Shown here in pieces: positions 11,807 through 32,276 of a DNA stretch of 64,000 bases. The stretch's first letter is position 1, and every line of letters begins with the position of its first letter. A model generated the notes under the pieces. It saw nothing but the letters and a program-made list of their open reading frames with translations. It was not told the origin of the DNA and searched no databases. The position numbers were made by a program, and so were the translations under genes. The DNA comes from Mitsuaria sp. 7 (lineage in GTDB: Bacteria > Pseudomonadota > Gammaproteobacteria > Burkholderiales > Burkholderiaceae_C), in NCBI RefSeq assembly GCF_001653795.1, contig NZ_CP011514.1:2932279-2996278 (forward strand). The letters are read 5' to 3'.

Positions 11807-12931
11807 ATGAGCACCCCGCACGACCCCTCCTCCGGCACGCTGAGCTACGAACAGGCCGGCGTCAACTACGACCTGATCGACCCGCTGAAGATCAGCGCCC
11901 AGCGCGCCGCGGCCGCGACCGCCGGCCACCTGAGCGCCCATGGCTTCACCGAAGTGAAGGCCTCGCGCGGCGAGTCGGCGTACGTCGTCGACGTGGGTCC
12001 GTTCTACATCGCGTCCATCGTCGAGTGCCTGGGCACGAAGACGCTGGTGGCCGACGAGATGGCCACGCTGACCGGCAAGAGCTACTACGACGGCATCGCG
12101 CAGGACACGATCGCGATGGCGGTGAACGACCTGATCACCGTCGGCGCGACGCCGCTGGTGGTGCAGGCCTACTGGGCCGCGGGCGGCTCGGACTGGTTCG
12201 GCGACGCGCAGCGCGCGCAGTCGCTGGTGGCGGGCTGGAAGAAGGCCTGCGACGTCTGCCAGGTCGCCTGGGGCGGCGGCGAGACGCCGGCGCTGGCGGG
12301 CATCGTCGAGGGCGGCCGCATCGACCTGGCGGCGTCCTGCACCGGCCTGATCAATCCGAAGGAACGTCTGTCGGTCGGCGACAAGCTGGGCGCGGGCGAC
12401 GCGATCGTGCTGCTGGCCTCGTCCGGCATCCACGCCAACGGCCTGAGCCTGGCGCGCAAGCTGACGGAGCGTCTGCCTCAGGGCTACCTGACCGAAGTGC
12501 AACCGGGCCTGACCTACGGCGACGCGCTGCTGGCGCCGACGGCGCTGTACTCGCCGGTGACCGAGGCGCTGTACAAGGCCGGCATCACGCCGCACTACTG
12601 CGCCAACATCACGGGCCACGGCTGGCGCAAGCTGCTGCGGCACCCGGGCAAGTTCACGTACCGCATCCACACGGTGCCGCCGGTGACGCCGGTGCTGAAG
12701 TTCATCCAGGACCACGCGCAGCAGGACGACCGCGAGGCCTATTCGACGCTGAACATGGGCGCGGGTTTCGCGATCTTCGTGAAGGCGGACCAGGCGGCCA
12801 AGGTGGTGGAGATCGCCAAGGCCTGCGGCATCGATGCGTGGGACGCGGGCCGCGTCGAGGACGGCGAGAAGCAGCTGCTGATCGAGCCGTTGGACATCCG
12901 TTTCGGGGATGACGATCTGCAGCTGCGCTGA
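11807..12931 (+). CDS. PurM-family protein (AIR synthase-like)
   Basis: 374 residues with the PurM/AIR-synthase layout: YEQAGVNYDLID near the start, GGGETPALAG in the middle, and SSGIHANGLSLARK, which parallels the SSGPHSNGYSLVRK motif of PurM. The ATP-site region differs from E. coli PurM (VECLGTKTLV in place of SGTDGVGTKL). It may be a divergent phosphoribosylformylglycinamidine cyclo-ligase or a paralogue with another role. It is divergent from dnaX, with a 119-bp promoter region between them. Confidence 0.75.
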   Translation: MSTPHDPSSGTLSYEQAGVNYDLIDPLKISAQRAAAATAGHLSAHGFTEVKASRGESAYVVDVGPFYIASIVECLGTKTLVADEMATLTGKSYYDGIAQDTIAMAVNDLITVGATPLVVQAYWAAGGSDWFGDAQRAQSLVAGWKKACDVCQVAWGGGETPALAGIVEGGRIDLAASCTGLINPKERLSVGDKLGAGDAIVLLASSGIHANGLSLARKLTERLPQGYLTEVQPGLTYGDALLAPTALYSPVTEALYKAGITPHYCANITGHGWRKLLRHPGKFTYRIHTVPPVTPVLKFIQDHAQQDDREAYSTLNMGAGFAIFVKADQAAKVVEIAKACGIDAWDAGRVEDGEKQLLIEPLDIRFGDDDLQLR

Positions 12932-12953
12932 GCGGGGTCAGGTCTGAAGGAAT

Positions 12954-12975
12954 GAAGGGCGCTGCGGCGCCCTTC
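12954..12975. terminator. Stem-loop terminator after the PurM-family gene
   Basis: A 9-bp GC-rich stem (12954-12962 with 12967-12975) and TGCG loop, followed by GTTGTTT. It lies 23 bp after the PurM-family stop codon. The T-tract is weak. Confidence 0.6.
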
Positions 12976-12990
12976 GTTGTTTCCGAGGCT

Positions 12991-13203
12991 TCAACTCGTC
13001 ACGACATCTGTGGAAACCAGTGCCCGATAGTTGGCGCGTCCCTCAATCACCTTCAACGCCATACGAAGGCGGCGGGAGATCGCCATGGCCTGCAGACACC
13101 TTGCCGGGGTCACGCGGATGCGCGTCTCGTAATCCGCCCGATTCCTTTCGTCTCGCAGCGTCCAAAGATCATCGGCGATGTCTTTCTCGCCGAGTGCATC
13201 ACT
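12991..13203 (-). pseudogene. Remnant of a HEPN-like protein C-terminus
   Basis: About 70 residues in one frame ending at 12991 with no start codon of their own, directly after the stop of the gene at 13199-13726. The segment LWTLRDERNRADYETRIRV closely resembles the conserved RxxRNxADYE signature of HEPN-domain toxins and nucleotide-binding partners. The upstream part of this frame is only the shadow of the neighbouring gene. I read it as a decayed or rearranged fragment, but fusion by frameshifting with the upstream gene cannot be excluded. Confidence 0.4.
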
Positions 13204-13726
13204 CCTTATCCGATACGTGCCGGTCCTCGAATGCACACCATTCCATCGACACGCCGACGCGGCAGAACAGATGATCAAGCGCGGGAACCGCATTGCGCGC
13301 TCGCTTGAAGCCCAACATCCGGCCGTCGTCCTCGTCCGCATCGTTCCGATCAAACCCCCAGGCGGTAAACCATGGATAACGGTCTTGCGTATCGATGTCG
13401 TGATGGATCTGGACACTGATCTGGCGATCTCCGACGTACTGGAGCAACAGCTCCAGATACAGATTCAGATCCTCGCGAGTCACGTCGGGATACTTCCCGC
13501 AGTGCCATGCAAGGATGTCCTCAAAGTCCTCCGTGCCGCGCAGGGCCTCGAGGTTGTACGGCCACTCGTTCGGCGAACACGGACTTACCCAGGGCAAGAA
13601 CTGGTACGGCGCCTGACCCTTGCTGTAGACCCAAACCCCTTTTTGCTCCGGCCACGAAGTACCCACCTCGGTCGCCACAGTCGCCCTGGGTGGCTTCACT
13701 TCTTCAAACTCGACTCGATTCAACAT
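13199..13726 (-). CDS. Hypothetical protein
   Basis: 175 residues from the ATG at 13726, with AAAGG upstream. It is acidic and rich in Trp, Tyr and Asp, with no signal peptide or membrane segment. Segments such as EDILAWHCGKYPDVTREDLNLYLELLLQ suggest a soluble alpha/beta protein. I do not recognise the family. It stops where the HEPN-like remnant begins in another frame. GC content and style differ from the flanking housekeeping genes, suggesting acquisition. Confidence 0.6.
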   Translation of the reverse strand: MLNRVEFEEVKPPRATVATEVGTSWPEQKGVWVYSKGQAPYQFLPWVSPCSPNEWPYNLEALRGTEDFEDILAWHCGKYPDVTREDLNLYLELLLQYVGDRQISVQIHHDIDTQDRYPWFTAWGFDRNDADEDDGRMLGFKRARNAVPALDHLFCRVGVSMEWCAFEDRHVSDKE

Positions 13727-16816: not shown

Positions 16817-16917
16817 GACGGGCCTCCTCGCATGGAAGCGCGGCCAACCGGGTCAGATGGGGAACCAAGCAGCCCTAACCGTTGTGACCAGTGCCGAGGG
16901 TAAGGCTCGTCAACCTC
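16817..16917 (+). ncRNA. ffs: Signal recognition particle RNA (small 4.5S type)
   Basis: About 100 nt. The apical SRP motif is visible: GTCAGATGGGGAACCAAGCAGCC, i.e. a GGGA tetraloop flanked by the asymmetric internal loop bound by Ffh. The 5' arm GACGGGCC pairs with GGCTCGTC near the 3' end, and CCTCG pairs with CGAGG. The RNA directs Ffh/FtsY co-translational targeting. Everything from 16844 rightwards belongs to the duplicated attachment-site segment, so the 3' three quarters of this copy came with, or were rebuilt by, the integrated island. No intrinsic terminator follows. Confidence 0.9.
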
Positions 16918-16919
16918 AT
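16844..16919 (+). repeat. attL: 76-bp direct repeat within ffs
   Basis: Identical base for base to 32077-32152. Identity starts at CCAACCGGG and ends at CAACCTCAT. It spans the SRP RNA apical loop and 3' arm, so crossover anywhere in it preserves a complete ffs on the left side. Confidence 0.92.
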
Positions 16920-16979
16920 CTAACAAAAGGCTTAAGAATCAAGCATTTAGCGTCGCGATGACGTCGGATGCGGGCCTTT

Positions 16980-16999
16980 TGTATCACTTGCTGTGTCAC
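16980..16999 (+). repeat. Candidate integrase arm-type site, left
   Basis: TGTATCACTTGCTGTGTCAC, itself two GTRTCAC heptamers 12 bp apart, 60 bp inside attL. It matches 18 of 20 bases of a segment 73 bp inside attR, in the same orientation. Confidence 0.5.
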
Positions 17000-17032
17000 T
17001 TCTGGGTCTCAGGTCTTCACCTGGAGATCCCG

Positions 17033-18298
17033 ATGTCGACCCTGACCGGCCTGTTTTCTCGCGGCCCCAGCTTCTACCTACGCGTCGTGTTGCCCCTGGA
17101 CCATCCGGGGCGGTCGCGCTATCGCAGCGGACGCGTCGTGCTGTCCCTCGGGGCCTGCAGCCGCCGCGAAGCGATCAGCAAGGGCATCATGCTGCGCGCT
17201 GAAGTCCTTCGCGGGGAACTGCCTCCAACGGCATCAGCGGGCCATCCCACTGCCACTGGGCAACTCCTGCCCCTCCCGGCAGCTTCGGGCAACTACGCGA
17301 CCACCCTGCCTCCCACTGCGCCCCCTCCGGCATACCTGCGGGAAGTCTTCGGCAAATGGACTGAAGCCAAGTCCCGCAACAAGGACACCGTCGCAGCCTG
17401 CAAACGGGCCTTGGCGCTCTTCGAACAGCAGACAGGCAACCCTCCCCTTGCCGCGCTCTCGCGGGCCCATGGCGTCGAGTTCCGGGCTTGGCTACAGCAC
17501 CCCGATCGCGGCACCACGACCAAGACGGCGCACGACCGCATGACCTGGGTGAAGTCGCTGCTGAAGTTCGCCCATGTCGACCTGGAGCTGATCCATCGCC
17601 AGCCCTGGGAGGGGCTGGACATCGACTCGTCGACGACACACCGACGGCGTCCTTGGTCTACGGAAGAACTGCAGACCCTGCTGAACGCGCCGCTCCATGC
17701 GCAATACGCCTTGCCAGCGGACATCAAGAGCGGCGGCGCAGCGGCGTACTGGGTCCCGTTGCTGGGCATGTTCAGCGGCGCCCGCATCAGCGAGTTGATC
17801 CAGCTGCGGCGGCGGGACATCGAGTTGATCAATGGCACGCTGGTCCTGAACATCACCGACGACGGTGACGACCTGCGACTGAAAACCAGCGCTGCAGTTC
17901 GGAAAGTACCGGTGCACAGCGAACTGATCCGGCTGGGCTTCGGCGACTACGTCAATGGCATTGCGAGCCCAGACCTGTCGATGTGGCCTGACGTGCCGCG
18001 TCGCGACGGCAAGACCGGCGGGTACTTCAGTCATTGGTTTGGTCTACATCGCCGCGCGCTGGGTCTGGGCCGATATCCGGACTTCCACTGCTTCCGACAC
18101 ACGGTCCGCAGCGCGCTCGCGAACGGCGAAGTCGCGGAGACCTTGATCGACGCGTTACTGGGGCATGAGGCGAAGGGCAGCACGGGCGCCCGCGTCTACA
18201 CGCACCGCGCGCTGGCGGACCTGCGAACAGCTATAGAGAAGATCGAGTACCCGGGGGTCACCGCTTCCGTTGCCTACCTTCGGCATCTTCTACTTTGA
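17033..18298 (+). CDS. int: Tyrosine site-specific recombinase (island integrase)
   Basis: 421 residues from the ATG at 17033, which has GGAG 6 bp upstream; an upstream ATG at 16958 lacks a ribosome site. Catalytic residues are in order: Arg251 (SGARISEL), His352 and Arg355 (FHCFRHT), His378 (LLGH) and nucleophile Tyr389 (RVYTH). The central part is a SAM-like core-binding domain (roughly 100-200), preceded by a Pro/Ala-rich linker. It should catalyse recombination between the ffs attachment site and the island circle. There is no terminator between ffs and this gene, so ffs transcription could feed its expression. Confidence 0.93.
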   Translation: MSTLTGLFSRGPSFYLRVVLPLDHPGRSRYRSGRVVLSLGACSRREAISKGIMLRAEVLRGELPPTASAGHPTATGQLLPLPAASGNYATTLPPTAPPPAYLREVFGKWTEAKSRNKDTVAACKRALALFEQQTGNPPLAALSRAHGVEFRAWLQHPDRGTTTKTAHDRMTWVKSLLKFAHVDLELIHRQPWEGLDIDSSTTHRRRPWSTEELQTLLNAPLHAQYALPADIKSGGAAAYWVPLLGMFSGARISELIQLRRRDIELINGTLVLNITDDGDDLRLKTSAAVRKVPVHSELIRLGFGDYVNGIASPDLSMWPDVPRRDGKTGGYFSHWFGLHRRALGLGRYPDFHCFRHTVRSALANGEVAETLIDALLGHEAKGSTGARVYTHRALADLRTAIEKIEYPGVTASVAYLRHLLL

Positions 18299-18396: not shown

Positions 18397-21378
18397 TTAC
18401 ACGGCAACACGCAGCCGCTTCGCACGTTCCTGGAAAGCACGCTTACCACCCTCCAGGATGGCGCACACTGCTTCCCGGATCGCCGGCTCCTCCAGCCCCC
18501 CAGAGACATAGGTCATTTGAGGCAAGCGGCCCGGCTCGTGGCTACCGCAGCGAGCAACGATCACCTGATCCGCATCGGTGTTGACGACCAAGTTCGCGTT
18601 ATGGGTCACGATGATCACTTGGCGGCGCAGCTTCGCACGCTGGAACTCGACCACAAGTTCATCGTAGATCGACTGCGGGTCCAGGTTCTCCTCAGGCTGG
18701 TCGACGATCAGAGGACGGTCGTCCTGGGCATCCACAGCCAAGTACAGCAGCAGCAGCACGATGCCGCGCGTTCCCGGGGACAGTCGTTCGATAGATACAC
18801 CGTCGAACTCCAGACCGTACCCGACCGAGATGTGATGTGTACTGAACAACCACGCCGAAACGCGCCGCGACCATTCCTTGATCTCCATTTGCTCTGGACG
18901 ATGACCGCGCAGGTCGGCGGAATGCGCAGCGATGAACTGCTGCAGCGCTTCTCCAGCCTGCGCGGCATCGCCCGTTCGCCAAGCATCGAGCAATGCCAAT
19001 GACGCTATGCTGCGCAGGCTTCCTTTGCCCTTGAAGGCTCCCGCCGAACGCAAGTCCAGCAGCGACTCGCCCTCCTCGCACCACGCGTCGAGGTCCACAT
19101 CGCGCCGCACGGTGAATGCGAGCTTGGCAAGCGATCCTTGCGCCTGAGCGATCTGCGCTTTCAGCGGCTGATACAGCGCTTGCAGGGCCTTCTCTTCCTC
19201 CAACACAGCCTGGAAGACACCGACATAGTCCGAACGCCTTTGCTGGCGCAACGTGTCAATGCGCTCGTTCGCGCCCTGGCCCTTCGTGATCTCGGCGTCC
19301 AGCTTGGTCAGCGCAATCTTGGCCGTCGCAACGCGGTCGCTCATCTGCTTGAAGCGTCTTGCGTTCTGCGCATCCATGCCCACCAGCGTGCGCAACCGCG
19401 CAAGCTCGCGCTCCAGCAACTTCAGTGGCTGCCTGGTCAGATCATCGGTGTCAGCCAGCAAGGGAACACTGGAATCAGTCGCGACGGCTGGCGCAGTCGG
19501 CGCCGTCAAATCTCCTTCGAGCATGCGCAGCTGGCGCTTTGTCTCTTGCAGTCGCTGCGTGAGCACCGCGTCCACATCTCCCGCAAAGACCAACTTGAAC
19601 TTATCCCAGTCCGCTGCCGGCAGCGCCGCGTCTGCTCGCTCAAGCCTCAAGACTTCGAGCATTTCCGGCAGCTCGCGCTCGCGCAGGTTTTTGACGTCGG
19701 CCACGAGGTGCTGCAGTGCTTCAAGCCTGACCTTGACTGCGATCACCTCGCCCCGTTTGGCCTCCACGGCATCGGCGACCTGGTCGTGACGCTGCGCTCG
19801 TGCGGCATCGCCTTTGGGCATCAACGCCTTCATGCCAGCCTCGTCGGTCTGGATGGCCGTCTGCTTAGCCGTACGCTCATTGACCAGGGCAGGCAGCCCG
19901 TCTTTGCGCGCCTGCTCGGAGGTCATCATCTCTGAAGTGCGTGAAATGGCCTGGACATGCCGGTTACGGCTGGTTCGAGCCCCCTCCAGGCGTATGTTCA
20001 GAAGTTCGTCGAACGAAGTAGCGTCCAGTCGGTCACCCTCCGAGTGCGCATCGAACACGACGCGTTCGATCTCACGTACCAGCGGATCCTCCAGCCCCTC
20101 CGCCGAACACAATTGATCGACGAACTGCTGGGACAGGTACTGCACGTGCGGCGCGTCAACGAGGTCCTCCATCTCTAGCCCGGCGAAGGAATTGGAGGTG
20201 GTGTCACCGGATTCCCACTGCAGCTGGACCTCGGACTGCTGCAGGTGCTCGCCTGCCCTCCGCAGGAAGGACTTGTCACTCAGGTGTTGGAAAACCGCGC
20301 AGCCGCCCATGGCGATGAAATCCGCCAACGCGGTCTTGCCAGATCCACGGGCTCCGATGATGGCAATAAGTCCAGCGTTCAGCTCGATCCTCGCCGGCTT
20401 CATCCACGGCGCGTGGCTGACTTCTACAGATCGGATGGCGCTATTGGGTAGCGCGCCACGCGGCGGTTCCTTGCCGATGAAGGCGCGCCCATCGGGGTTC
20501 ATGCAGGTCTGACGCAGGGCTTCGAAGGTCACCGCGCCTTTGAGCCAGCAATAACGATCCATCAGCGGATTGCCGACCCTGCTGTGATCATGAGCATCCG
20601 ACCCGTGTAAACAAGGCTTGACGCCACCCCACTTGGCGTTGAGTTCGTCTAGCGTCGCTTGCCCTTTTCCCGCATAGAAGGCCGCCTGCTTGGGATTACC
20701 GCTGAAAATGATGTGTGCAAAGGCCTCGATGTTGGTGCGCGTCGCGGCAAAAGATCCAGTCGGATCCCGCAGCCCCGATGTTCCGTCGCGCTCGCCGGCA
20801 GCCATAGCGACCAAGCAATTGGCGCGGAACCAGTCGTTGGTCTCCCAGGTCTTGCGCAGGTCCTCGAAGTCGATCTTGAACTGGTTCACCCCAGCCGTGA
20901 GTGCCACGCCGTCGTCGACAATTGCGACGTCATGCGCACGCCCTAGGCGCATAAGTTCTGAACGCTCGCAGCGAAACTCATCCTTCATGTAGCGGAACTT
21001 GAAGCCCGACAGCAGGCGGCGAATACGCTCGACGTGGTCCTTCTCGTCCGGTGAGAACAGCAGATGCGCGTTGATCGCCGAGTTGGTCCCCGTGCCTAGC
21101 GACAGGCGGATTTCAACGTTGGGGAACAGGAGTTCGACGCCCGGCAAGCGCCCGGCGGCCTTCGCCTCGCAGGCCTTCTCGTAGGTGTCAACGAGGAAGT
21201 AGTCCGTGATGCCCAGGGCGCGAATGGCCGGCTGCTGCTGGTCGACACGAGTGAAGAATTCGGACCAGGGATCGGCACCGCCATACTGGTCGTTCATCGC
21301 CGTACCAGGCGCATGGATGTGGGGGTCCCAGCGATGCCACAACGAACCCCGCGAGGTATCGACCGCGCTTTTGCTCAT
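18397..21378 (-). CDS. TrlF-family PHP-SMC ATPase (putative defence protein)
   Basis: 993 residues from the ATG at 21378. The N-terminal PHP phosphoesterase domain has DPHIH (His20, His22) and HGSDAH (258-263). It is fused to an SMC/ABC-type ATPase with Walker A GARGSGKT (342-349), a long central coiled-coil region (about 480-800), signature LSPGTRG and Walker B PLIVDQPEENLD near the C-terminus. TrlF-like PHP-ATPase proteins are scattered in mobile elements and regarded as defence-associated. The PHP metal site suggests nucleic acid or nucleotide phosphodiester hydrolysis controlled by the ATPase. It is divergent from the HEPN/AbiU2-like gene at 21657. Confidence 0.85.
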   Translation of the reverse strand: MSKSAVDTSRGSLWHRWDPHIHAPGTAMNDQYGGADPWSEFFTRVDQQQPAIRALGITDYFLVDTYEKACEAKAAGRLPGVELLFPNVEIRLSLGTGTNSAINAHLLFSPDEKDHVERIRRLLSGFKFRYMKDEFRCERSELMRLGRAHDVAIVDDGVALTAGVNQFKIDFEDLRKTWETNDWFRANCLVAMAAGERDGTSGLRDPTGSFAATRTNIEAFAHIIFSGNPKQAAFYAGKGQATLDELNAKWGGVKPCLHGSDAHDHSRVGNPLMDRYCWLKGAVTFEALRQTCMNPDGRAFIGKEPPRGALPNSAIRSVEVSHAPWMKPARIELNAGLIAIIGARGSGKTALADFIAMGGCAVFQHLSDKSFLRRAGEHLQQSEVQLQWESGDTTSNSFAGLEMEDLVDAPHVQYLSQQFVDQLCSAEGLEDPLVREIERVVFDAHSEGDRLDATSFDELLNIRLEGARTSRNRHVQAISRTSEMMTSEQARKDGLPALVNERTAKQTAIQTDEAGMKALMPKGDAARAQRHDQVADAVEAKRGEVIAVKVRLEALQHLVADVKNLRERELPEMLEVLRLERADAALPAADWDKFKLVFAGDVDAVLTQRLQETKRQLRMLEGDLTAPTAPAVATDSSVPLLADTDDLTRQPLKLLERELARLRTLVGMDAQNARRFKQMSDRVATAKIALTKLDAEITKGQGANERIDTLRQQRRSDYVGVFQAVLEEEKALQALYQPLKAQIAQAQGSLAKLAFTVRRDVDLDAWCEEGESLLDLRSAGAFKGKGSLRSIASLALLDAWRTGDAAQAGEALQQFIAAHSADLRGHRPEQMEIKEWSRRVSAWLFSTHHISVGYGLEFDGVSIERLSPGTRGIVLLLLYLAVDAQDDRPLIVDQPEENLDPQSIYDELVVEFQRAKLRRQVIIVTHNANLVVNTDADQVIVARCGSHEPGRLPQMTYVSGGLEEPAIREAVCAILEGGKRAFQERAKRLRVAV

Positions 21379-21656
21379 CTTGTTGTCCCTCTCCCTGTCG
21401 CGCAAGTCTACCGGCACGATCCGGGCGTCCGCTAGGGCCAAGGGGGCAACGGGTCAACGGGTCAAGGCCAGGATCTCCAGGGCTTCGGGCATCACGATTT
21501 CAGGCGCGCCCTCGGGGCAACTACAGTAGCGACGCCGCGCTGGGCTGCGCTATGTGACGAGCGAGGTTGCGCGCCCGAGATGGATTAACTATGCCGGTTG
21601 GCAGTCGTCATGGATCGACGGACCGAGCCGCGACGCATTACTGCGGGAGAGCCTCA

Positions 21657-22253
21657 ATGGCATCGGACGATCTCAGGGAAACCTTCTTGGCATTGCGCGA
21701 ACAGTGCATCTGGATCCGGACCTGCTTCAACACGTTTATCGGGTTGTTCGAGTCCGGGGGAGTACGCCATCAGCTGATGGACAAGACGGCGCCGCTGTTC
21801 TTCCAAGAAATCAATCGGATCCTTTACGAGAACTACATCCTCCAGGTCTGCAAGCTGACAGACAAGGCCAGCACCCCTGTCAAGGGCGGCAAGCGCCTGA
21901 ACTTGACCGTCGCCCACGTGAACGAGCTGCTAAACGCGGAGGGGATGATGAACCAGGCGATTCAGGACGCGACGGTCGGCCTAGATCGATTTAGGACCCT
22001 GATCGAAGAAGCCCGCAACAGGCTGGTGGGCCACAGTGACAAAGTGGCCGTCCTCTCATTCGTTCCGCTTGGCACCCACACTCAGCAGGAGTCGCTGGCC
22101 TTCTTCGGGTACATGTTCAACTATGTGGACGCTGTCGGGAATGCGATCGGCGTAGGTCCGCTGGACTTCGGCACCACCTCCTCAAGCGGAGACGTGCACG
22201 ATCTGTTTAAGGCTCTCAACGGCGGACAGTATCCGCACGAAGACGGCGGCTGA
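21657..22253 (+). CDS. HEPN/AbiU2-like protein
   Basis: 198 residues from the ATG at 21657, preceded by GGGAGAG. The region ILYENYILQVCKLTDKAST, followed by EEARNRLVGHSDKVAV, resembles AbiU2-like HEPN proteins; the Arg120-Asn121-x4-His126 motif (RNRLVGH) matches the HEPN ribonuclease signature. HEPN proteins commonly act as toxins or abortive-infection RNases. It is divergent from the PHP-SMC ATPase gene, with 278 bp between the starts. That spacing allows shared regulation but does not prove a joint system. Confidence 0.6.
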   Translation: MASDDLRETFLALREQCIWIRTCFNTFIGLFESGGVRHQLMDKTAPLFFQEINRILYENYILQVCKLTDKASTPVKGGKRLNLTVAHVNELLNAEGMMNQAIQDATVGLDRFRTLIEEARNRLVGHSDKVAVLSFVPLGTHTQQESLAFFGYMFNYVDAVGNAIGVGPLDFGTTSSSGDVHDLFKALNGGQYPHEDGG

Positions 22254-22266
22254 AGTCAGATGCCGT

Positions 22267-22578
22267 TCATAGGACAGATGCGCCTGAAATGGTGTGAGTC
22301 CCATCGGTTTGCTGCTTGACTGGGATTCCAAGGCGGATCGTCACAGGCGCCGTAGACGGTGCGTCCATGTCGAGGGCGCGGCGCTTCGGGGCCACGTACT
22401 GCGCTAGCTCCGAAAACATGCGCCCGCGCAGCTCCGGCGGGTTCGACTCGTCCATCGCGATCAGGGCCATGCCCTCGATGGGATCGCAGCCCAGTTCTTC
22501 GAGCCGCTCGATGACATCCGCAGTCCTCCGATTCGGAGTTCCCGCTACGCGTCCGCCGGTCTTTCGTCCCATCGCCAT
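22267..22578 (-). CDS. Small phage-like protein (GTPN-motif family)
   Basis: 103 residues. The N-terminus MGRKTGGRVAGTPNRRTADVIE is the basic GGRxxGTPNK-type segment often seen in short phage and terminase-small-subunit-like proteins, followed by a helical region (NPPELRGRMFSELAQYVAPKRRAL). No terminase large subunit or other packaging gene is present, so a packaging role is not supported. Its start faces the AlpA gene across a 242-bp gap in which I see no gene. Confidence 0.55.
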   Translation of the reverse strand: MAMGRKTGGRVAGTPNRRTADVIERLEELGCDPIEGMALIAMDESNPPELRGRMFSELAQYVAPKRRALDMDAPSTAPVTIRLGIPVKQQTDGTHTISGASVL

Positions 22579-22820: not shown

Positions 22821-23072
22821 ATGTCCATGTCCTTCAAGATCCTTCGACTCCCCTCGGTCTGCGCCCTCATGGGATGCTCCCGATCGACCATCTATCGCCT
22901 CGTCGCTGACGGCCTGTGGACGAAACCTGTGAGCCTCTCCTCGGGCTGCATTGGCTGGCCCGAAGACGAAGTCCAGACCATCCTCGGCGCGCGTGTCGCG
23001 GGCATGGCCGACGGCGAGATCCGCCGTTTGACTACAGCGCTGCAGGCGCAGCGGGAGGCGTTCAGCGCATGA
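22821..23072 (+). CDS. AlpA-type MerR-like DNA-binding regulator (excisionase-like)
   Basis: 83 residues (ATG at 22827 is also possible). The segment LRLPSVCALMGCSRSTIYRLVADGLWTKPVSLSSGCIGWPEDEV is the AlpA/phage-regulator winged helix. Such proteins control excision and early transcription of integrated elements. The stop codon overlaps the start of the polymerase-like gene (ATGA), so the two are translationally coupled. Confidence 0.85.
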   Translation: MSMSFKILRLPSVCALMGCSRSTIYRLVADGLWTKPVSLSSGCIGWPEDEVQTILGARVAGMADGEIRRLTTALQAQREAFSA

Positions 23073-24649
23073 CCCCGTCGAACCTGTCCGCCAACATCGC
23101 CAGCCGCGTACCCCACTTCCGTACTTTGGCGGAGACCGAGCAGTGGGCGATCACGCGCATGGCGTGGGCCTGGGCATCGGGCCCATCCCACGATGTGTAC
23201 GCCGGTTACTGCGCGTTCCCCAAGCAGCGCTTGCGCACCCTGTGGAAGTCGGATCAACGGGCCCGCGATCGCCTGCAGTACCACTACTTCCACGTCCTGC
23301 CCGGGATTCGCGGCCAGAGGGTGGCGCACGCGTGGAGGCCCAAGGCCGAGCTGTTGGAAGCCATCCAAGCGTCCTGCGACGACCCGCAGCCCTGTGACCT
23401 GCTCGACGACAAAGGAAGGCCGATCAGGCGCTTGCAGACGGCTTTACCAGCCCGGCGGGGACCGTCGAAAAGCTCCTATGTCGGCCTCGCCTGCACCAAC
23501 GCTGTAGAGATCAACGTCGCGGCCCTGCAGTACTGCAGCGCAGTCGCGCCACGGGAACAGGATCGAAAATTCGCCAAGGCACTGCTGCGCTTGGCCAACA
23601 ACAAGCTCGCGCCGGGCCGCGTGCCAATCAGGTACGAGGAGAAGGACACGGGCCGCCTGTTCGCGCGCGGTGGCGTCCTGCAGGGATACAGCCGGGAAGC
23701 TCGGAAAGCCGCGTTGTCGGGCGCTTGGGACTACGACATCTCCAATTGCCACTTCGCGGTCCTGCGCCACTTTGCGATCCGCCTGGGGATCGAGACCCCG
23801 ACCGTCGCCGCATACCTGGTCAGCAAACGCGAAACACGTGAAAGGCTCAGCCGGACATGCAATGCGGATGTCGATGCGGTGAAGCAGGCACTGATCGCGC
23901 TGGTCTACGGGATGTCCCTGTCCCCTCGCCTGCACGGCTCCCTCGCTCGAACCCTCGGGTCGCAGGACGCAGCGAAGCGCTTCGGACAGGACAAGTTCGT
24001 CCGCAGCCTCCTGACCGAGATCAAGACGCTGATCGCCCCATTGATCGAACTCCATGCGAAGCCCTTTGGCCGCGTGGTCAACGCGATTGGCCGGGCGGCG
24101 CCCATGAGTCGCGGCAAATGGCGCTTGCTAGCCCACCTCCTCCAGGGGGTCGAGGCATCGGCACTCAGGGCCGTCCTAGATGCGCATGGGGGCGACGTAT
24201 TGCTCGCAGTGCACGACGGCTGGATCTTCAAGCGTCACGTCGAGCCAGCCGCCGTGGAAGCGTTGATCGAGCGGGCGACCGGCGTGCGACTTTCGCTGGA
24301 ATGCCAACCCCTACAAACCCCGGTGAATGATCAGACGATATCCAGCATTTCCCATTCAAATCAACAAGTTACAGAACACAGCCTTCAGATCTGTGCCAGT
24401 ACTGAAGGAAGCCTCCAAACACAAGGACAAGATCCCCTCCAGGCCCAGCCCCTCCCCCAACCCCCTCTCGTCCCTGACATCTTCTACAACACTGATCCCG
24501 TCAAGGACCGACCCCGGGGACTGGTTCTGTCAGGCTGTGTGTCCTGGTCGGTTCCGACGCACGTCACCGGCGTCGAGTGGAGCAGCGGGCGGCGCAGAAG
24601 AACGGCAGCGCCCGCCGTTGAAGCCGTCGCCATGAACCAGACCGACTAA
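23069..24649 (+). CDS. Family-A-like single-subunit polymerase (element replication protein, putative)
   Basis: 526 residues. The ordered motifs of the Pol I/T7 RNA polymerase superfamily can be read: TGRL at 194-197 and LQ at 204-205; motif A DYDISN at 221-226 (Asp221, Asp223); motif B Lys272 and Tyr280-Gly281 with exactly the Lys-x7-Tyr-Gly spacing of T7 RNA polymerase; a QG pair at 359-360 in the position of the PIQG motif; motif C VHDG at 381-384, like the VHDE of Pol I. There is no 3'-5' or 5'-3' exonuclease domain. The N-terminal 170 residues and the Gln/Pro-rich tail are unassigned. I infer a DNA polymerase or primer-synthesising replicase for the island; RNA synthesis is also possible. 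Confidence 0.65.
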   Translation: MTPSNLSANIASRVPHFRTLAETEQWAITRMAWAWASGPSHDVYAGYCAFPKQRLRTLWKSDQRARDRLQYHYFHVLPGIRGQRVAHAWRPKAELLEAIQASCDDPQPCDLLDDKGRPIRRLQTALPARRGPSKSSYVGLACTNAVEINVAALQYCSAVAPREQDRKFAKALLRLANNKLAPGRVPIRYEEKDTGRLFARGGVLQGYSREARKAALSGAWDYDISNCHFAVLRHFAIRLGIETPTVAAYLVSKRETRERLSRTCNADVDAVKQALIALVYGMSLSPRLHGSLARTLGSQDAAKRFGQDKFVRSLLTEIKTLIAPLIELHAKPFGRVVNAIGRAAPMSRGKWRLLAHLLQGVEASALRAVLDAHGGDVLLAVHDGWIFKRHVEPAAVEALIERATGVRLSLECQPLQTPVNDQTISSISHSNQQVTEHSLQICASTEGSLQTQGQDPLQAQPLPQPPLVPDIFYNTDPVKDRPRGLVLSGCVSWSVPTHVTGVEWSSGRRRRTAAPAVEAVAMNQTD

Positions 24650-24778: not shown

Positions 24779-25105
24779 ATGGAAGAAAACGAAGTCGTCA
24801 AAGCCCTCGGTGCTCTCGCCCAACCGCTGCGGCTCCAGGTGTTCCGCGCCCTGGTCGTGGTCGGCCAGAGCGGCCTGACCCCCGGTGCAATCCAGGAAGC
24901 CCTCGGCGTACCTGCCGCCACCCTGTCGTTCCACTTGAAGGAACTGGTCGCGTCGGGGCTGGTAACGCAGGAACGCGCCAGCCGCAACCTGATCTACCGC
25001 GCCGCGTACGACCAGATGAACGCCCTGCTTGGATACCTGACCAAGAACTGCTGCCAGGGTGATGCCTGCGCGGTGGACAACGACCCGGCCAAGTGCGGCT
25101 GCTGA
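24779..25105 (+). CDS. arsR: ArsR/SmtB-family arsenic-responsive repressor
   Basis: 108 residues. The winged helix-turn-helix includes LTPGAIQEALGVPAATLSFHLKELVASGLV. As(III) ligands are expected in the C-terminal NCCQGDAC segment (Cys91, Cys92, Cys97), which resembles the arsenite site of the Acidithiobacillus-type ArsR rather than the alpha-3 ELCVCDL type; Cys106 and Cys108 add a second pair. It is first gene of the ars operon, followed after 9 bp by arsC, and is preceded by a matching dyad. Confidence 0.94.
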   Translation: MEENEVVKALGALAQPLRLQVFRALVVVGQSGLTPGAIQEALGVPAATLSFHLKELVASGLVTQERASRNLIYRAAYDQMNALLGYLTKNCCQGDACAVDNDPAKCGC

Positions 25106-25114
25106 AAGGCCCCC

Positions 25115-25609
25115 GTGAAGACACCCACCTACAACGTCCTGTTCATCTGCACCCGGAACTCAGCCCGGTCCATCCTCGCGGAAGGCCTGTTGAATCACAT
25201 GGGCGGCGGACGCTTCAAGGCGTTCTCCGCAGGCAGCGCGCCCAGCGGGCAAGTTCACCTGATGGCCATGGAGGAACTGCAGCAGCTGGGCATCGCGACG
25301 GATGGCCTTCGCTCCAAGGGCTGGGATGAATTTGCAGTCGCCGATGCGCCCGTGATGGACTTCGTCTTCACCGTCTGCGATCAGGCTGCTGGCGAGACTT
25401 GCCCCGTATGGCCGGGTCAGCCCCTGACCGCTCACTGGGGCATGCCCGATCCGGGGACGGTCGAGGGCCCGGAGGCCACACGTCGGCTGGCCTTCCGCAA
25501 TGCAGCAATCACCTTGAAGCGGCGCCTGGAATTGATGATGGCGCTGCCCCTGCCAGCGCTCGACCGCATGGCGATCCGCCAGGAAATCACCACCATCGGC
25601 AATCGCTGA
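25115..25609 (+). CDS. arsC: Arsenate reductase, low-molecular-weight phosphatase type (copy 1)
   Basis: 164 residues. The catalytic loop CTRNSARS (Cys12-x5-Arg18) is at the N-terminus, with a downstream CDQAAGETCPVWPG segment carrying further cysteines. Reduces arsenate to arsenite for export. It is larger than the ~130-residue thioredoxin-coupled ArsC of Gram-positive bacteria and belongs to the proteobacterial branch often found with ACR3 and ArsH. A second arsC follows after 4 bp. Confidence 0.92.
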   Translation: MKTPTYNVLFICTRNSARSILAEGLLNHMGGGRFKAFSAGSAPSGQVHLMAMEELQQLGIATDGLRSKGWDEFAVADAPVMDFVFTVCDQAAGETCPVWPGQPLTAHWGMPDPGTVEGPEATRRLAFRNAAITLKRRLELMMALPLPALDRMAIRQEITTIGNR

Positions 25610-25613
25610 CGCC

Positions 25614-26102
25614 ATGGCCACCAACGTCCTCATCCTGTGCACCCACAACTCGGCGCGAAGCGTGCTGAGTGAAGGCATGCTGAATCACTGGGCATCACGG
25701 CTGGGCAAAGACCTGCGCGGATTCAGCGCCGGCAGCGCGCCCAGCGGACGGATCAACCCGCACGCCCTGCACGCGCTTGCGGCTGCTGGTGTCGACGTTG
25801 CCGGATTCCGCAGCAAGAGCTGGGACGAATTCATCGGCCCCGAAGCGCCGCAGATGCGCATCGTCATTACCGTCTGCGACAGCGCCGCCGCCGAGCAATG
25901 TCCTTACTGGCCGGGCAGCCCCGTGAAGGTGCATTGGGGTTACGCCGATCCGTCCGCTGCCCCCGAGGCCGATCGGGCGGCCGCCTTCGAACTGACCCGG
26001 GAAGCCATTGCCTATCGCATGCTTCAACTCACCCTGCTCCCCGTCGCGACGATGACCGACGCGGCGTTGCAGGATGCCTTGATCCGCATTGGCCGCTCAT
26101 GA
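25614..26102 (+). CDS. arsC: Arsenate reductase, low-molecular-weight phosphatase type (copy 2)
   Basis: 162 residues; catalytic loop CTHNSARS (Cys9-x5-Arg15) and the parallel segment CDSAAAEQCPYWPG. It is clearly paralogous to the gene just upstream (shared NSARS, FSAGSAPSG, SKGWDEF/SKSWDEF, HWG), but differs at many positions, so the duplication is old or the copies were acquired separately. It overlaps the ACR3 start (ATGA). Confidence 0.92.
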   Translation: MATNVLILCTHNSARSVLSEGMLNHWASRLGKDLRGFSAGSAPSGRINPHALHALAAAGVDVAGFRSKSWDEFIGPEAPQMRIVITVCDSAAAEQCPYWPGSPVKVHWGYADPSAAPEADRAAAFELTREAIAYRMLQLTLLPVATMTDAALQDALIRIGRS

Positions 26103-27187
26103 TGGACAAGGTCACGGCTCTCCCATCGGCCAAGGTCACCGCCCCACCGGCTCGCATCGGCTTCTTCGAGAAGTACCTGAGCGTATGGGTGATGGCGTGC
26201 ATCGCCATCGGGGTCGGACTCGGACAGGTCGCCCCCGGCCTCGCTCATTCCGTAGCCTCGCTGGAGGTCGCACAAGTCAATGTGCCGGTCGGCGTGCTGA
26301 TCTGGATCATGATCATCCCGATGCTGCTGAAGGTCGACTTCGCCGCACTGGGTCAAGTGAAGACGCATGCGAGGGGCATCGGGGTCACGCTGTTCATCAA
26401 CTGGGGCGTCAAGCCATTTTCGATGGCCGTCCTTGCATGGATGTTCATCCGTCATCTGTTCGCGTCCTGGCTGCCCGCCGAGCAGCTCGACAGCTACGTC
26501 GCGGGTCTGATTCTCCTGGCGGCAGCACCGTGCACGGCCATGGTCTTCGTCTGGAGTCAGCTGTGCAAAGGTGATCCACTTTTCACGCTGTCGCAGGTCG
26601 CGCTGAACGACGCGATCATGGTGATCGCCTTCGCGCCCATCGTCGCGCTTCTCCTCGGGTTGTCCTCGGTCACCGTGCCGTGGGACACGTTGATGACCTC
26701 GGTCGGGCTCTACATCGTCCTCCCGGTCGTCATGTCCCAGCTCTGGCGCAGATGGCTCCTGCAGCGCGGCCAAGCCCGCCTGCAGGCAACGCTCGCGAAG
26801 CTATCGCCCTTCTCCATCAGCGCGCTGTTGTTGACACTGGTACTGCTCTTCGCCTTCCAGGGCGGCCAGATCATTGAACAACCGCTGGTCATCGCTCTGC
26901 TCGCCGTACCCATCCTGATTCAGGTCATCTTGAACTCGGGGCTGGCGTACATCCTCAACCGCAGGTTTGGTGTCCAGCACTGCGTCGCCGGTCCATCCGC
27001 ACTCATCGGTGCCAGCAACTTCTTCGAGTTGGCGGTCGCGACTGCCATCAGCCTCTTCGGGTTCCAGTCCGGCGCCGCTTTGGCGACCGTGGTTGGTGTT
27101 CTGGTCGAGGTCCCCATCATGCTGGCCATCGTCAGCATCGTTAATCGCAGCCAATCCTGGTACGAGCAAGGAAGCCGAAATGCCTGA
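26099..27187 (+). CDS. acr3: ACR3-family arsenite efflux permease
   Basis: 362 residues, about ten hydrophobic helices. The conserved cysteine of ACR3 proteins is Cys145 in [13 protein letters not shown]; the [18 protein letters not shown] segment is also family-typical. Exports As(OH)3 using the proton motive force. The start overlaps the arsC stop and the 3' end overlaps arsH by 8 bp, so translation is tightly coupled. Confidence 0.94.
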
Positions 27188-28040
27188 ACTGGACCTGACC
27201 TTCCCCGCCCTCGACACAGGCGTCTTTGAAGTGCCTGACCCCGAGCGACTCAAGCCCATTGACCCATCCCGGCACAAGCCGCGGTTCCTGTTGCTTTATG
27301 GTTCGCTCCGCGTCAGGTCCTACAGCCGACTGCTGGTATTTGAGGCCGCGCGACTGCTTGAGGCCATGGGCGGGGAGGTCCGTGTCTTCGACCCGTCCGG
27401 CCTGCCGCTGCCGGACGACGCCGCTGACACCCATCCCAAGGTCCAGGAACTGCGCCAGTTGGCCGCTTGGTCCGAAGGCATGGTGTGGTGCTCGCCGGAG
27501 CGCCACGGCGCCATGACGGGCGTGATGAAGGCACAGATCGACTGGATTCCGCTGACCTCGGGCGCGATCCGTCCGACGCAGGGCAAGACGCTTGCGGTCA
27601 TGCAGGTATCCGGTGGGTCGCAGAGCTTCAACGCGGTGAACCAGATGCGGGTGCTGGGCCGCTGGATGCGCATGCTCACGATCCCGAATCAGTCATCCGT
27701 CGCCAAGGCCTACGACGAGTTCACCGAAGAAGGCCGGATGAAGTCTTCGGCCTACTACGAACGCGTCGTCGACGTGGTCGAAGAGCTGTTCAAGTTCACG
27801 TTGCTGACGCGAGACCTGTCCCCCTACCTGGTCGATCGCTACAGCGAGCGGAAGGAAGCATCGAAGAAGGCCCCGCAGGCGACCATCAAGCCGGTCGACA
27901 ACGGCGTTCCTGTCCAGGGTGACAGCTGTTGCAGCCCAGCTGCAACACAGCCGATCGCCGTCACGCGGAAGAGCGGTTGCGCCCCAGCAGGCAAGACAGC
28001 GGGCGATCCAGCCACCGCATCTACAAGCTGCTGCAGCTGA
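27180..28040 (+). CDS. arsH: ArsH NADPH-dependent FMN reductase (organoarsenical oxidase)
   Basis: 286 residues. The flavodoxin-like FMN-binding loop [14 protein letters not shown] and [20 protein letters not shown] are diagnostic. ArsH oxidises trivalent methyl- and aromatic arsenicals. The usual protein is ~230-250 residues; here a ~40-residue C-terminal extension contains three cysteine clusters (SCCSPA, SGCAPA, TSCCS), which may bind arsenic or be a linker from a lost fusion. Confidence 0.93.
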
Positions 28041-28045
28041 CTCGA

Positions 28046-29242
28046 ATGCCGTTGGCCCGGGCCGGAACCACTGCCGCCCTGGGCGTGGCCCAGACACTGG
28101 CGTGGGCGTCGACGTACTACCTGCCTGCGATGCTGGCAGCGCCGATGGCGATCGACCTTGGTGTCAGTACTTCGACCGTGTTCGGCGCGTTCTCGATGGC
28201 GCTGGTGGTCTCCGCCTGTGTCGGTCCTGCTGCCGGGCGGGCCATAGACCGGCACGGCGGGCGTCCCGTGTTGATGATCAGCAGTCTGGTGTTCTTCGCT
28301 GGTCTGGCGCTGCTGGGAAGCGCGCGCAGCACTGCCGGCATGGTCGCTGCCTGGATCGTCTTGGGTGTCGGCATGGGAGGCGGCCTCTATGAAGCAGCGT
28401 TCGCGGCCTTGGTCCGCTTGTGGGGTCAAGACTCCAGGGCGGCAATAACTGGAGTGACGCTGCTTGCAGGATTCGCGAGCACCGTCGGGTGGCCGCTGAC
28501 CAGTCATCTCGAAACCACACTCGGCTGGCGATCGACTTGCTTTGTCTGGGCCGCACTTCACCTGTGCCTCGGCCTGCCGCTCAATGCATTGATCGCCGGG
28601 GTAGAGAAGCCCCTCAGCGCCATCGGCGCGCCGCCCATGGACGTGATCGCCCATGTCGCGGCCTCCAAGCCCTCGCGGTACACCACGGCCTTGCTGGCAT
28701 GGGTCTTCGCCGCCACACTGTTCATCAGTACGGCGATGGCCGCGCATCTTCCGCGACTCCTGCAGGCACAAGGCGCGTCGCTTGAAGGCGCTGTCATGGT
28801 CGGCGCACTTATCGGTCCGGCTCAAGTCGCCGCAAGACTGACGGAGTTCGGCCTGATGCGGCATCTACACCCATTGATCGCAGCACGCCTTGCCGCAGCC
28901 CTACATCCGTTCGGTGCGATTCTTCTGGGAGTCTTGGGCGCCCCTGCAGCCGCAGTCTTCGGACTGCTACACGGGGCTGGCAACGGGATTCTTACCATCG
29001 CCAAGGGAACGCTTCCCCTGTCGATCTTCGGCGCCCAAGGATATGGCAGACGTCAGGGCGTCCTGATGATTCCTGCCCGGTTGGCTCAGGCGATTGCGCC
29101 TTGGTCCTTCGGTCTCGCGCTCGATGCGTCCGGTCGCGGGGCACTTGCGATTTCCGGTGCCATCGGTGCACTCGCGTTCGCCAGCCTGTTCGCCCTGACA
29201 CCCCCGGCGCCTGAAAAGTCATTGCGGGGCATCAAACCTTGA
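28046..29242 (+). CDS. MFS transporter at the end of the ars operon
   Basis: 398 residues from the ATG at 28046, 5 bp after the arsH stop, with about 12 hydrophobic segments and the inter-helix motif GRAIDRHGGRPVLM typical of the major facilitator superfamily. The operon context suggests export of an arsenical. No gapdh-like gene is adjacent, which argues against the ArsJ (1-arseno-3-phosphoglycerate) type; an ArsK-like or organoarsenical exporter is possible. Confidence 0.82.
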   Translation: MPLARAGTTAALGVAQTLAWASTYYLPAMLAAPMAIDLGVSTSTVFGAFSMALVVSACVGPAAGRAIDRHGGRPVLMISSLVFFAGLALLGSARSTAGMVAAWIVLGVGMGGGLYEAAFAALVRLWGQDSRAAITGVTLLAGFASTVGWPLTSHLETTLGWRSTCFVWAALHLCLGLPLNALIAGVEKPLSAIGAPPMDVIAHVAASKPSRYTTALLAWVFAATLFISTAMAAHLPRLLQAQGASLEGAVMVGALIGPAQVAARLTEFGLMRHLHPLIAARLAAALHPFGAILLGVLGAPAAAVFGLLHGAGNGILTIAKGTLPLSIFGAQGYGRRQGVLMIPARLAQAIAPWSFGLALDASGRGALAISGAIGALAFASLFALTPPAPEKSLRGIKP

Positions 29243-30563: not shown

Positions 30564-30658
30564 GCGCGCGCACTGATCAATCAGAACCTTCCCTGAAGTG
30601 ACCAGCGGTGGTCGGATCTGCGACCATTCCCGTCAAAACGAAACTGGCGGGGGACGGC

Positions 30659-31765
30659 ATGGCCGACGATGTTTACAGCGACTCCATTCGAAAATCTGGC
30701 TTCGTACTCGAACATCAGGTTGCCCAAGACCTGAAGATCGCGGGCTGGACTGTCATAAGCAACAAGTACTACGTCGACGACCAGTCAGACGCAGTTCGTG
30801 AAGTTGATCTTGTGGCCTACCGCACTCGGAAGGTCCAGCACTTCGACGTCTGCACTGTGTTGATCGTCAGCTGCAAGAAGAGCGCAGACAACGCCTGGGC
30901 GTTCCTCGCTCGGCCCATAAATCTCAATGACAAGAACTCGGATTGGTGGCCGGTCCACATCTGGTCGAATGACCCTGCCCTTCAATACGTGCTTGGTCAG
31001 CCCGGGGTCGGCAAGCAGTTTCACGGCGACGCTCTGCAACACGGAGTGACCGAAGTACTAGAGACGCCGACGGTCGAGGTGTTCGCGTTTCAGGAGATGA
31101 AGAAGGGATCCGGTGCAGTCCAGAACGACAAGGCAATCTTCTCGTCCATTACGGGACTGATGAAAGCGCAAGCTTATGAAATGCAGTCACTGCCGGGCAG
31201 GAAGAAGGACCCCTGCGTCTATCAGTTCAATCTTGTTTCCGTCGTCGACACCGACCTAGTTCGGATTCACTTTGACGGCGACGGGATCACAAGCGCCCAA
31301 GTGCATGGCGAACACTACATCGGGCGCTACATCATCAACAAGGCGGAGACCTTCGCGCGCATCCGACTCGTCGCTGCGACGGCCTTCCAGGATCTGCTTG
31401 AAGACTTCGCACGTTTGCATCGATCAAACTGCGACTGGTTTGCCTCCGAATGCACTTCGTTCTATCAAGACATCGTCAAGGATCCGAAGCGCGTCGACGC
31501 CCTTGCCGATCTCTTCAACCGCAAAACCTTGCCGATGGTCAACTTCTTTGTACGGCGCAAGTTCGGATCCGAAAAGAAGGTAGGTCCCGCGTTCCTATAT
31601 TTTGATGAAGCTGATGACATGGTGCGCATCGGCTACGAAGCCGACGACGACGTTACCGATTTCATGGACTCGAACGATGGCGTTCGCGGGACGGTGCAGG
31701 CAGGCCTGAAAGCGATTTACCGGTATGAAGGGGATTTCAGCCTTCTTTTCGACATCCCCTTCTAG
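30659..31765 (+). CDS. PD-(D/E)XK nuclease-like protein (putative restriction/defence)
   Basis: 368 residues from the ATG at 30659, which has GGGGGA upstream. The N-terminus follows the Mrr-like restriction fold: GFVLEHQVAQDLKIAGW, then REVDLVAY (Asp50) and LIVSCKKS, where Ser71 occupies the usual catalytic Glu position before Cys72-Lys73. The remainder (~270 residues) is unassigned and may recognise the target. GC content is visibly lower than in neighbouring genes, pointing to recent acquisition. No methylase is adjacent, so this is not an ordinary restriction-modification pair. Confidence 0.6.
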   Translation: MADDVYSDSIRKSGFVLEHQVAQDLKIAGWTVISNKYYVDDQSDAVREVDLVAYRTRKVQHFDVCTVLIVSCKKSADNAWAFLARPINLNDKNSDWWPVHIWSNDPALQYVLGQPGVGKQFHGDALQHGVTEVLETPTVEVFAFQEMKKGSGAVQNDKAIFSSITGLMKAQAYEMQSLPGRKKDPCVYQFNLVSVVDTDLVRIHFDGDGITSAQVHGEHYIGRYIINKAETFARIRLVAATAFQDLLEDFARLHRSNCDWFASECTSFYQDIVKDPKRVDALADLFNRKTLPMVNFFVRRKFGSEKKVGPAFLYFDEADDMVRIGYEADDDVTDFMDSNDGVRGTVQAGLKAIYRYEGDFSLLFDIPF

Positions 31766-32076: not shown

Positions 32077-32152
32077 CCAACCGGGTCAGATGGGGAACCA
32101 AGCAGCCCTAACCGTTGTGACCAGTGCCGAGGGTAAGGCTCGTCAACCTCAT
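32077..32152 (+). repeat. attR: 76-bp direct repeat, 3' fragment of ffs
   Basis: Exact copy of 16844-16919. Upstream of it the sequence no longer forms the 5' arm of the SRP RNA, so this is not a second working ffs gene. It is followed by the terminator that must originally have served ffs. Confidence 0.92.
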
Positions 32153-32159
32153 TCAAGTG

Positions 32160-32183
32160 AAAACCGCCGGGAGGCGGTTTTTT
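32160..32183 (+). terminator. Intrinsic terminator, originally of ffs
   Basis: Stem AAAACCGCC/GGCGGTTTT with a GGGA loop and a run of six T (32178-32183), 7 bp after the ffs 3' fragment. A textbook Rho-independent terminator, separated from the intact ffs by the island. Confidence 0.92.
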
Positions 32184-32276
32184 CGCTTGGGCAGTTCAGG
32201 ACGCTAGAACGCCACTTCAGCCGCGCGCGCCGTCTCGTGCTCTCTCAAGTTCGGAACACCCGCGTCGCGACGATCA

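Follow-up and report, generated by a model that had tools for sequence, protein, structure and literature searches.

This report concerns a 526-residue protein encoded by a 15.2-kb integrative element of Mitsuaria sp. 7, located in a 64,000-nucleotide stretch of contig NZ_CP011514.1 (positions 2,932,279 to 2,996,278; hereafter the window, whose own numbering is used for all coordinates given without a locus name). The protein is a TV-Pol-type family-A polymerase that probably acts as the replicative primase-polymerase of the element, a reading to which we assign a probability of about 0.6. Its polymerase fold is well supported by a predicted model, and its function is inferred. Iyer, Abhiman and Aravind (2008) described TV-Pols as minimal family-A domains encoded by transposons, by viruses and by elements with an integrase or resolvase, for which they predicted both primase and polymerase activity; the family includes a protein of cyanophage Ma-LMM01 (PMC2579912). 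The enzyme class is already known, and the window polymerase belongs to it as a divergent lineage. An initial annotation of this DNA was right to describe a minimal family-A polymerase that lacks a full exonuclease domain and lies beside AlpA on a small integrative element. Its suggestion of an undescribed replication module was too strong, since TV-Pols on integrase- or resolvase-bearing elements have been known since 2008 (PMC2579912), and assays of a relative have been published (PMC7581432).

Motifs, predicted fold and ribonucleotide-gate positions

The polymerase open reading frame (ORF; 23069-24649, + strand) carries the motifs in the order claimed by the initial annotation, with TGRL at residue 194, LQ at 204, YDIS at 222, K272-x7-Y280-G, LQG at 358 and VHDG at 381. 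GGGAGG sits 10 nt 5' of its start. A loose pattern of this motif order was found in one of the 314 stop-to-stop frames of at least 100 aa in the window, namely the polymerase ORF, and in none of 100,000 shuffled versions of its sequence; because the pattern was composed once the family had been seen, these counts exclude only composition as an explanation. Among aligned family rows D223 is kept in 25/25 and K272 in 24/25, and among rows with a letter at the position D383 is kept in 24/24 and the hairpin arginine R196 in 23/23. R196 is also present in 9/9 distant rows, some of which are hard to align. D223 aligns with Pol I D705 and D383 with D882. Asp221, which the initial annotation named along with D223 and D383, is D or E among relatives (in an alignment in which loci L050 and L052 were out of frame), D223 being the match of D705. 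Relative to the motif B consensus R-x3-K-x3-F-x3-Y-G, the lysine is present in 24/25 rows and Y or F in 23 of the 24 with a letter, with R in 0/25 and F in 1/25. That the gene is a decayed and inactive one is highly improbable: a distant relative in congener G687 does have an internal stop inside the match, but the window gene is intact and the catalytic residues are kept among relatives at 26-45% identity.

The right-hand fold that the initial annotation had suggested looking for is present in the predicted model, which shows a Pol I-like arrangement of palm, fingers and probable thumb. An RRM-like palm with two aspartates is seen in model and alignment, hairpin strands lie at 184-186, 189-191 and 197-199, helices 150-159 and 163-176 fall inside the span matched to Pol I, and a thumb of two antiparallel helices is likely present. 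The protein has no Pfam match to a nuclease domain and no space for a full 3'-5' exonuclease. In several fold matches the first aligned residues (119-130) map within the exonuclease domain of the matched chain (Klenow residue 361, T7 DNA polymerase residue 12), so that the N-terminal part of the matched span may hold a short exonuclease vestige. The initial annotation had the motif core right and omitted the N-terminal ~118 residues as well as the disordered tail of ~100 residues. The N-terminal domain (aa 1-118) may be winged-helix-like, at best weakly so, and a short GL...W motif in the tail also occurs in relatives, a loose pattern of it being present in 9 of the 15 tails inspected.

A further difference concerns the Pol I residues E710 and F762, which discriminate against ribonucleotides. 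Both are retained in CcPol, which primes with deoxynucleotides (PMC7581432) and is counted among the TV-Pols according to Rice (PMC10061031). At the E710 position the aligned members of the window family have H (21/25) or Q (4/25) and never E (0/25), and at the F762 position F occurs in 1/25; E at the former or F at the latter was found in 0/9 distant relatives, whose rows are hard to align. Since both residues are replaced, ribonucleotide-containing primers would be plausible for the window polymerase, unlike for CcPol, and ribonucleotide use is on sequence grounds a predicted property of the enzyme. The same replacements could fit a T7-like single-subunit RNA polymerase that transcribes the element, and the predicted fold does match mitochondrial (E 0.013-0.033) and phage (E 7.7e-4) RNA polymerases weakly. 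However, family-A DNA polymerases match far better, and hhalign to T7 RNA polymerase, a single-sequence template, was not significant (probability 0.5), which leaves an RNA polymerase very unlikely.

Family placement and neighbourhoods of relatives

No credible family was found for the polymerase in Pfam (E <= 10), NCBIfam or PADLOC (E <= 1). The Pfam DNA_pol_A profile proposed earlier as a check (PF00476) does not match it, and a PF00476 search of its own genome gave a single match, at another place. PHROG 34692, of unknown function, is a weak match (E 6e-4). A phmmer search against PDB sequences gave no match, and a 21-row profile searched against the same sequences gave only a ribosomal-protein match (E 0.93). 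The protein gp030 of cyanophage Ma-LMM01 and its MaMV homolog align with the polymerase family profile with a probability of 97 and an E of 9.5e-11. The gene for gp030 adjoins two transposase genes in LMM01, and gp030 is presumably the LMM01 protein counted as a TV-Pol by the 2008 paper. The hairpin arginine, the two aspartates, the absence of a nuclease and the mobile context are all found in the window polymerase, the thumb is likely and the fingers motif RxxxK is half present, which places the protein in a TV-Pol-like divergent lineage.

A search of 5.8 billion proteins, in which 7,997 candidates were scored, recovered 12 further relatives with 27-45% identity over 42-100% of the polymerase length. 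A second database search with a 13-row profile returned 12 proteins, all within the first 13, and profile scans added six relatives in genome contigs and one in viral contigs. At a cut-off of E <= 0.001, and with G000 included every time, the 13-row profile matched at least 10/299 genomes in the family and at least 2/399 in the order, and the 21-row profile at least 5/398 in the phylum, at least 1/369 in the class and at least 2/16 in the genus; the family of G941 yielded at least 2/216. Some of the matches cover only part of the protein or are distant, and the counts are lower bounds because few first-look candidates were scored per genome in the large samples. Such a rare and patchy distribution is what a mobile gene would be expected to show. 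Distant relatives were also seen in a record of Nitratidesulfovibrio phage SRB7757 (142 kb; L047:3164-5467) that has no annotation, and at congener locus L069:4733-7564, where the match contains one internal stop and lies beside a serine recombinase-like ORF.

Ten family loci have readable upstream DNA (the window, L001-L004, L021, L022, L024, L054 and L055), and four of them (the window, L001, L002 and L054) have AlpA upstream of the polymerase. The AlpA search relied on a profile built from three of these proteins and may have overlooked more divergent AlpA-like genes. In the window the polymerase ATG overlaps the AlpA stop by 4 nt (ATGA), an overlap found in the window only. The two nearest named relatives have spacings of 87 nt (L001, Pelomonas sp. 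V22) and 411 nt (L002, Roseateles violae, with one doubtful ORF between), and the overlap is not conserved. L054 comes from a genome of the same class but a different family, and there AlpA is one small ORF away from the polymerase. The order integrase, AlpA, polymerase recurs in L002 and L054. The latter (L054:8699-12726) forms a second island of this kind, in which a transfer-messenger RNA (tmRNA) gene (12890-13247) has the integrase beside it, and an ORF, AlpA, another ORF and a TV-Pol-like protein follow in that order. A 103-aa gene divergent from alpA in the window is kept at an equal position in L001 (L001:9105-9407, phmmer E 7.6e-44). Outside the AlpA loci, the Polaromonas plasmid pW9NP1 has a polymerase homolog 10 bases from repA, and pH8NP1, L003 and L005 each carry a serine recombinase as well. 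The two nearest islands (L001:11654-18553 and L002:14334-21425) share an NYN-LOTUS gene, recognised by Pfam in L001 and by eye in L002, and by eye also an apparent type I restriction system, oriented oppositely with respect to the polymerase.

The 15.2-kb element and its cargo

The element is bounded by two copies of a 76-nt repeat spaced 15,233 bases apart and is integrated in the signal recognition particle (SRP) RNA gene (Table 1). An empty site is found in congener G688 (locus L058), where the flanks join at one repeat copy with an identity of 94.8% over about 420 bases on the left and 98.3% over 117 on the right. Eight congener loci were compared, of which five match the right flank beyond the repeat and three the repeat only. 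The GC fraction is 0.623 inside the element versus 0.687 and 0.677 beside it. The host retains a full SRP RNA gene; the hairpin and T-run (about 32160-32190) that directly adjoin this gene in congeners are parted from it by the island, which leaves its likely terminator 15 kb off.

Table 1. Features of the integrative element and of the polymerase, in window coordinates
Feature	Position	Strand	Support or remark
attL: left copy of 76-nt direct repeat, 3' part of SRP RNA gene	16844..16919	+	100% identical to right copy
SRP RNA gene	16817-16914		Rfam RF00169, 61.5 bits
attR: right copy of 76-nt repeat, followed by hairpin and T-run	32077..32152	+	
Tyrosine integrase, just inside attL (predicted start)	16958..18298	+	PF00589 E 3.9e-9; PHROG 1 E 2.4e-31
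TrlF family AAA-like ATPase, defence-type cargo	18397..21441	-	NCBIfam NF045780, 628.5 bits (cut-off 350)
AbiU2-like HEPN protein, defence-type cargo	21567..22253	+	PF18734 E 4.5e-25
Small protein of 103 aa, divergent from alpA	22267..22578	-	PHROG 15261 (unknown function) E 2.9e-8
AlpA regulator/excisionase-like protein, 83 aa	22821..23072	+	PF05930 E 2.3e-10, 40.6 bits (cut-off 21)
TV-Pol-like family-A polymerase, 526 aa	23069..24649	+	
N-terminal domain, aa 1-118	23069..23422	+	mostly helical, two wing-like strands
Polymerase domain, aa 119-417	23423..24319	+	palm D223 and D383, fingers K272 and Y280, probable thumb
Disordered C-terminal tail, aa 428-526	24350..24646	+	pLDDT (model confidence) <50 at 428-490 and 502-526
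Arsenic-resistance-type cargo	24779..29242	+	PF12840, PF01451 twice, PF01758, PF03358, PF07690

The TrlF-family ATPase and AbiU2-like HEPN genes are adjacent and divergent (18397-22253) and are likely phage-defence cargo. The arsenic-resistance-type genes are what we take to be an ArsR-like regulator, two LMWPc-fold proteins, an SBF-family (Acr3-like) carrier, an FMN_red (ArsH-like) protein and an MFS carrier. Further genes of the element include a Cro/C1-type regulator, an HTH_17 protein and some ORFs of unknown function. The 103-aa divergent protein is basic and might, as a guess, be a regulator or a DNA-packaging-type protein. A 385-aa ORF (30608-31765) has no Pfam family, and by eye its N-terminal part has a restriction-endonuclease-like pattern of acidic residues and lysine. 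Pfam scans covered 16 chosen ORFs of the element, of which four, the polymerase included, had no Pfam family.

This cargo raises the possibility that the polymerase is itself an accessory or defence enzyme that targets invading DNA or RNA and takes no part in replication of the element. TrlF and AbiU2 on the island would fit such a role, as would a type I restriction subunit that adjoins the L024 homolog (Pfam) and similar genes near the L001 and L002 homologs, the latter recognised by sequence reading only. Yet alpA or a plasmid repA stays near the polymerase in the loci read, defence genes vary, and the PADLOC search did not match the polymerase. We give a defence role a rather small chance.

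Proposed role and comparison with known systems

In the proposed mechanism, AlpA would switch the element on through activation of expression, excision or both, by analogy with phage-inducible chromosomal islands (PICIs) and phage-inducible chromosomal minimalist islands (PICMIs). The polymerase would then reach the excised circle with the help of its N-terminal domain or of a host protein, and would there start, and perhaps extend, DNA strands on a single-stranded template. By the same analogy the polymerase would fill the slot of Pri-Rep, PICMI prim or P4 alpha in an int-alpA-replicase core, with the host supplying the helicase, the single-stranded DNA-binding protein (SSB) and Pol III. The N-terminal domain and the tail motif are, as a guess, candidate contacts with the origin or with host proteins. 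A broader scenario, possible but doubtful, is that AlpA islands have swapped a primase-helicase for a standalone TV-Pol that makes ribonucleotide or mixed primers and recruits host proteins via its N-terminal domain and C-terminal tail, to give a helicase-free, satellite-like replication module.

Several observations weigh against a role as replicative primase-polymerase. The Pfam scans of 16 element ORFs recognised no family of replicative helicases, of primases or of SSBs, and none of D5-type helicases, which are typically linked to TV-Pols and CcPol; TV-Pols have such a helicase fused or close by, or else a TV-PolN domain. No iterons were found. Of the TV-Pol fingers, a helix-turn-helix with a conserved aspartate and RxxxK, only K272 is kept, R at -4 being absent in 25/25, and the aspartate was not identified. 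Comparisons by hhalign with single T7 RNA and DNA polymerase sequences were not significant, and neither were those of two small TV-Pol-like sets with PolA (7 of 13 PolA loci), the T7 enzymes or each other (one pairing); the link to PolA accordingly rests on an 18-row family profile and the fold. Finally, AlpA is upstream in only 4/10 readable loci and the island holds mostly defence and metal genes, so that a non-replicative role is possible.

A related alternative is a primer-dependent or gap-filling polymerase of the element, which would extend in a Pol I-like manner without priming, for repair or to finish replication started by the host. The solved folds nearest to the model are of Pol I-type, primer-dependent enzymes, CcPol without its partner MP only extends primers (PMC7581432), and no counterpart of MP was recognised in the element; in the 129 nt between the polymerase and the ArsR-like gene (24779), the interval to which this check was limited, there is no OB-fold partner gene, and no helicase family follows. 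We nonetheless regard this alternative as unlikely, given the lack of a full exonuclease domain, the extra N-terminal domain, the TV-Pol precedents and the position beside alpA or repA.

If a replicative primase-polymerase is indeed encoded here, TV-Pol replicases would extend to PICI-like islands with AlpA in Pseudomonadota, and a satellite primase would have been replaced by an unrelated enzyme. The polymerase is a clean test case for the 2008 prediction that TV-Pols synthesise primers, and could show whether members that have lost the ribonucleotide gate prime with RNA, in distinction from CcPol, which primes with DNA. No pairing of AlpA with a TV-Pol or family-A polymerase was found in the titles, abstract openings and passages of the first 12-20 open-access papers listed per search, a coverage that leaves aside subscription papers and supplements and makes this negative weak evidence of novelty. 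On that weak evidence, what appears to be new is an Int-AlpA-Pol core with no recognised helicase or SSB partner, together with the loss of both Pol I residues that discriminate against ribonucleotides.

Like known TV-Pols, the window polymerase has a minimal family-A domain with the hairpin arginine and two aspartates, has no nuclease fusion and is found on integrase- or resolvase-bearing mobile elements. It differs in lacking the R of RxxxK and a recognised D5-type helicase, in having an AlpA partner and in its very low sequence similarity. The CcPol-MP pair of SCCmec and the PolA-SSB primases likewise place a family-A domain on an integrative element with a proposed role in replication, and CcPol also lacks exonuclease domains (PMC7581432, PMC10061031). 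The DNA polymerase CcPol gains priming activity on binding MP, and the two together are a proven primase (PMC7581432). However, CcPol keeps E710 and F762, its partner has a predicted OB fold and a Cch2-type helicase accompanies it, whereas the window polymerase has neither residue and no such partner was recognised.

Islands of the tmRNA gene in Pseudomonas of the I55 type resemble the window element in their tyrosine integrase, AlpA, defence cargo and absence of recognised transfer genes, and one such island has been moved by a jumbo phage, but the main text describing them never uses the word polymerase (PMC12595487). Gram-negative PICIs depend for induction and transfer on three conserved genes, int, alpA and pri, and expression of AlpA alone triggers excision and replication that need int and pri (PMC10111431, PMC6092414). 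PICMIs carry int, alpA and prim, and their copy number is lower when prim is lost (PMC10803314). No primase or helicase of the Pri-Rep, prim or alpha type was found among the 16 scanned ORFs of the window element, and no packaging or helper-phage gene was recognised in it. The window element shares with PICIs, PICMIs and P4-like satellites an integrase, AlpA and a replication gene, here a putative one, on a small element at a conserved site (PMC6092414, PMC10803314, PMC10111431), but where those satellites have Pri-Rep, prim or alpha it has a TV-Pol-like protein in that place.
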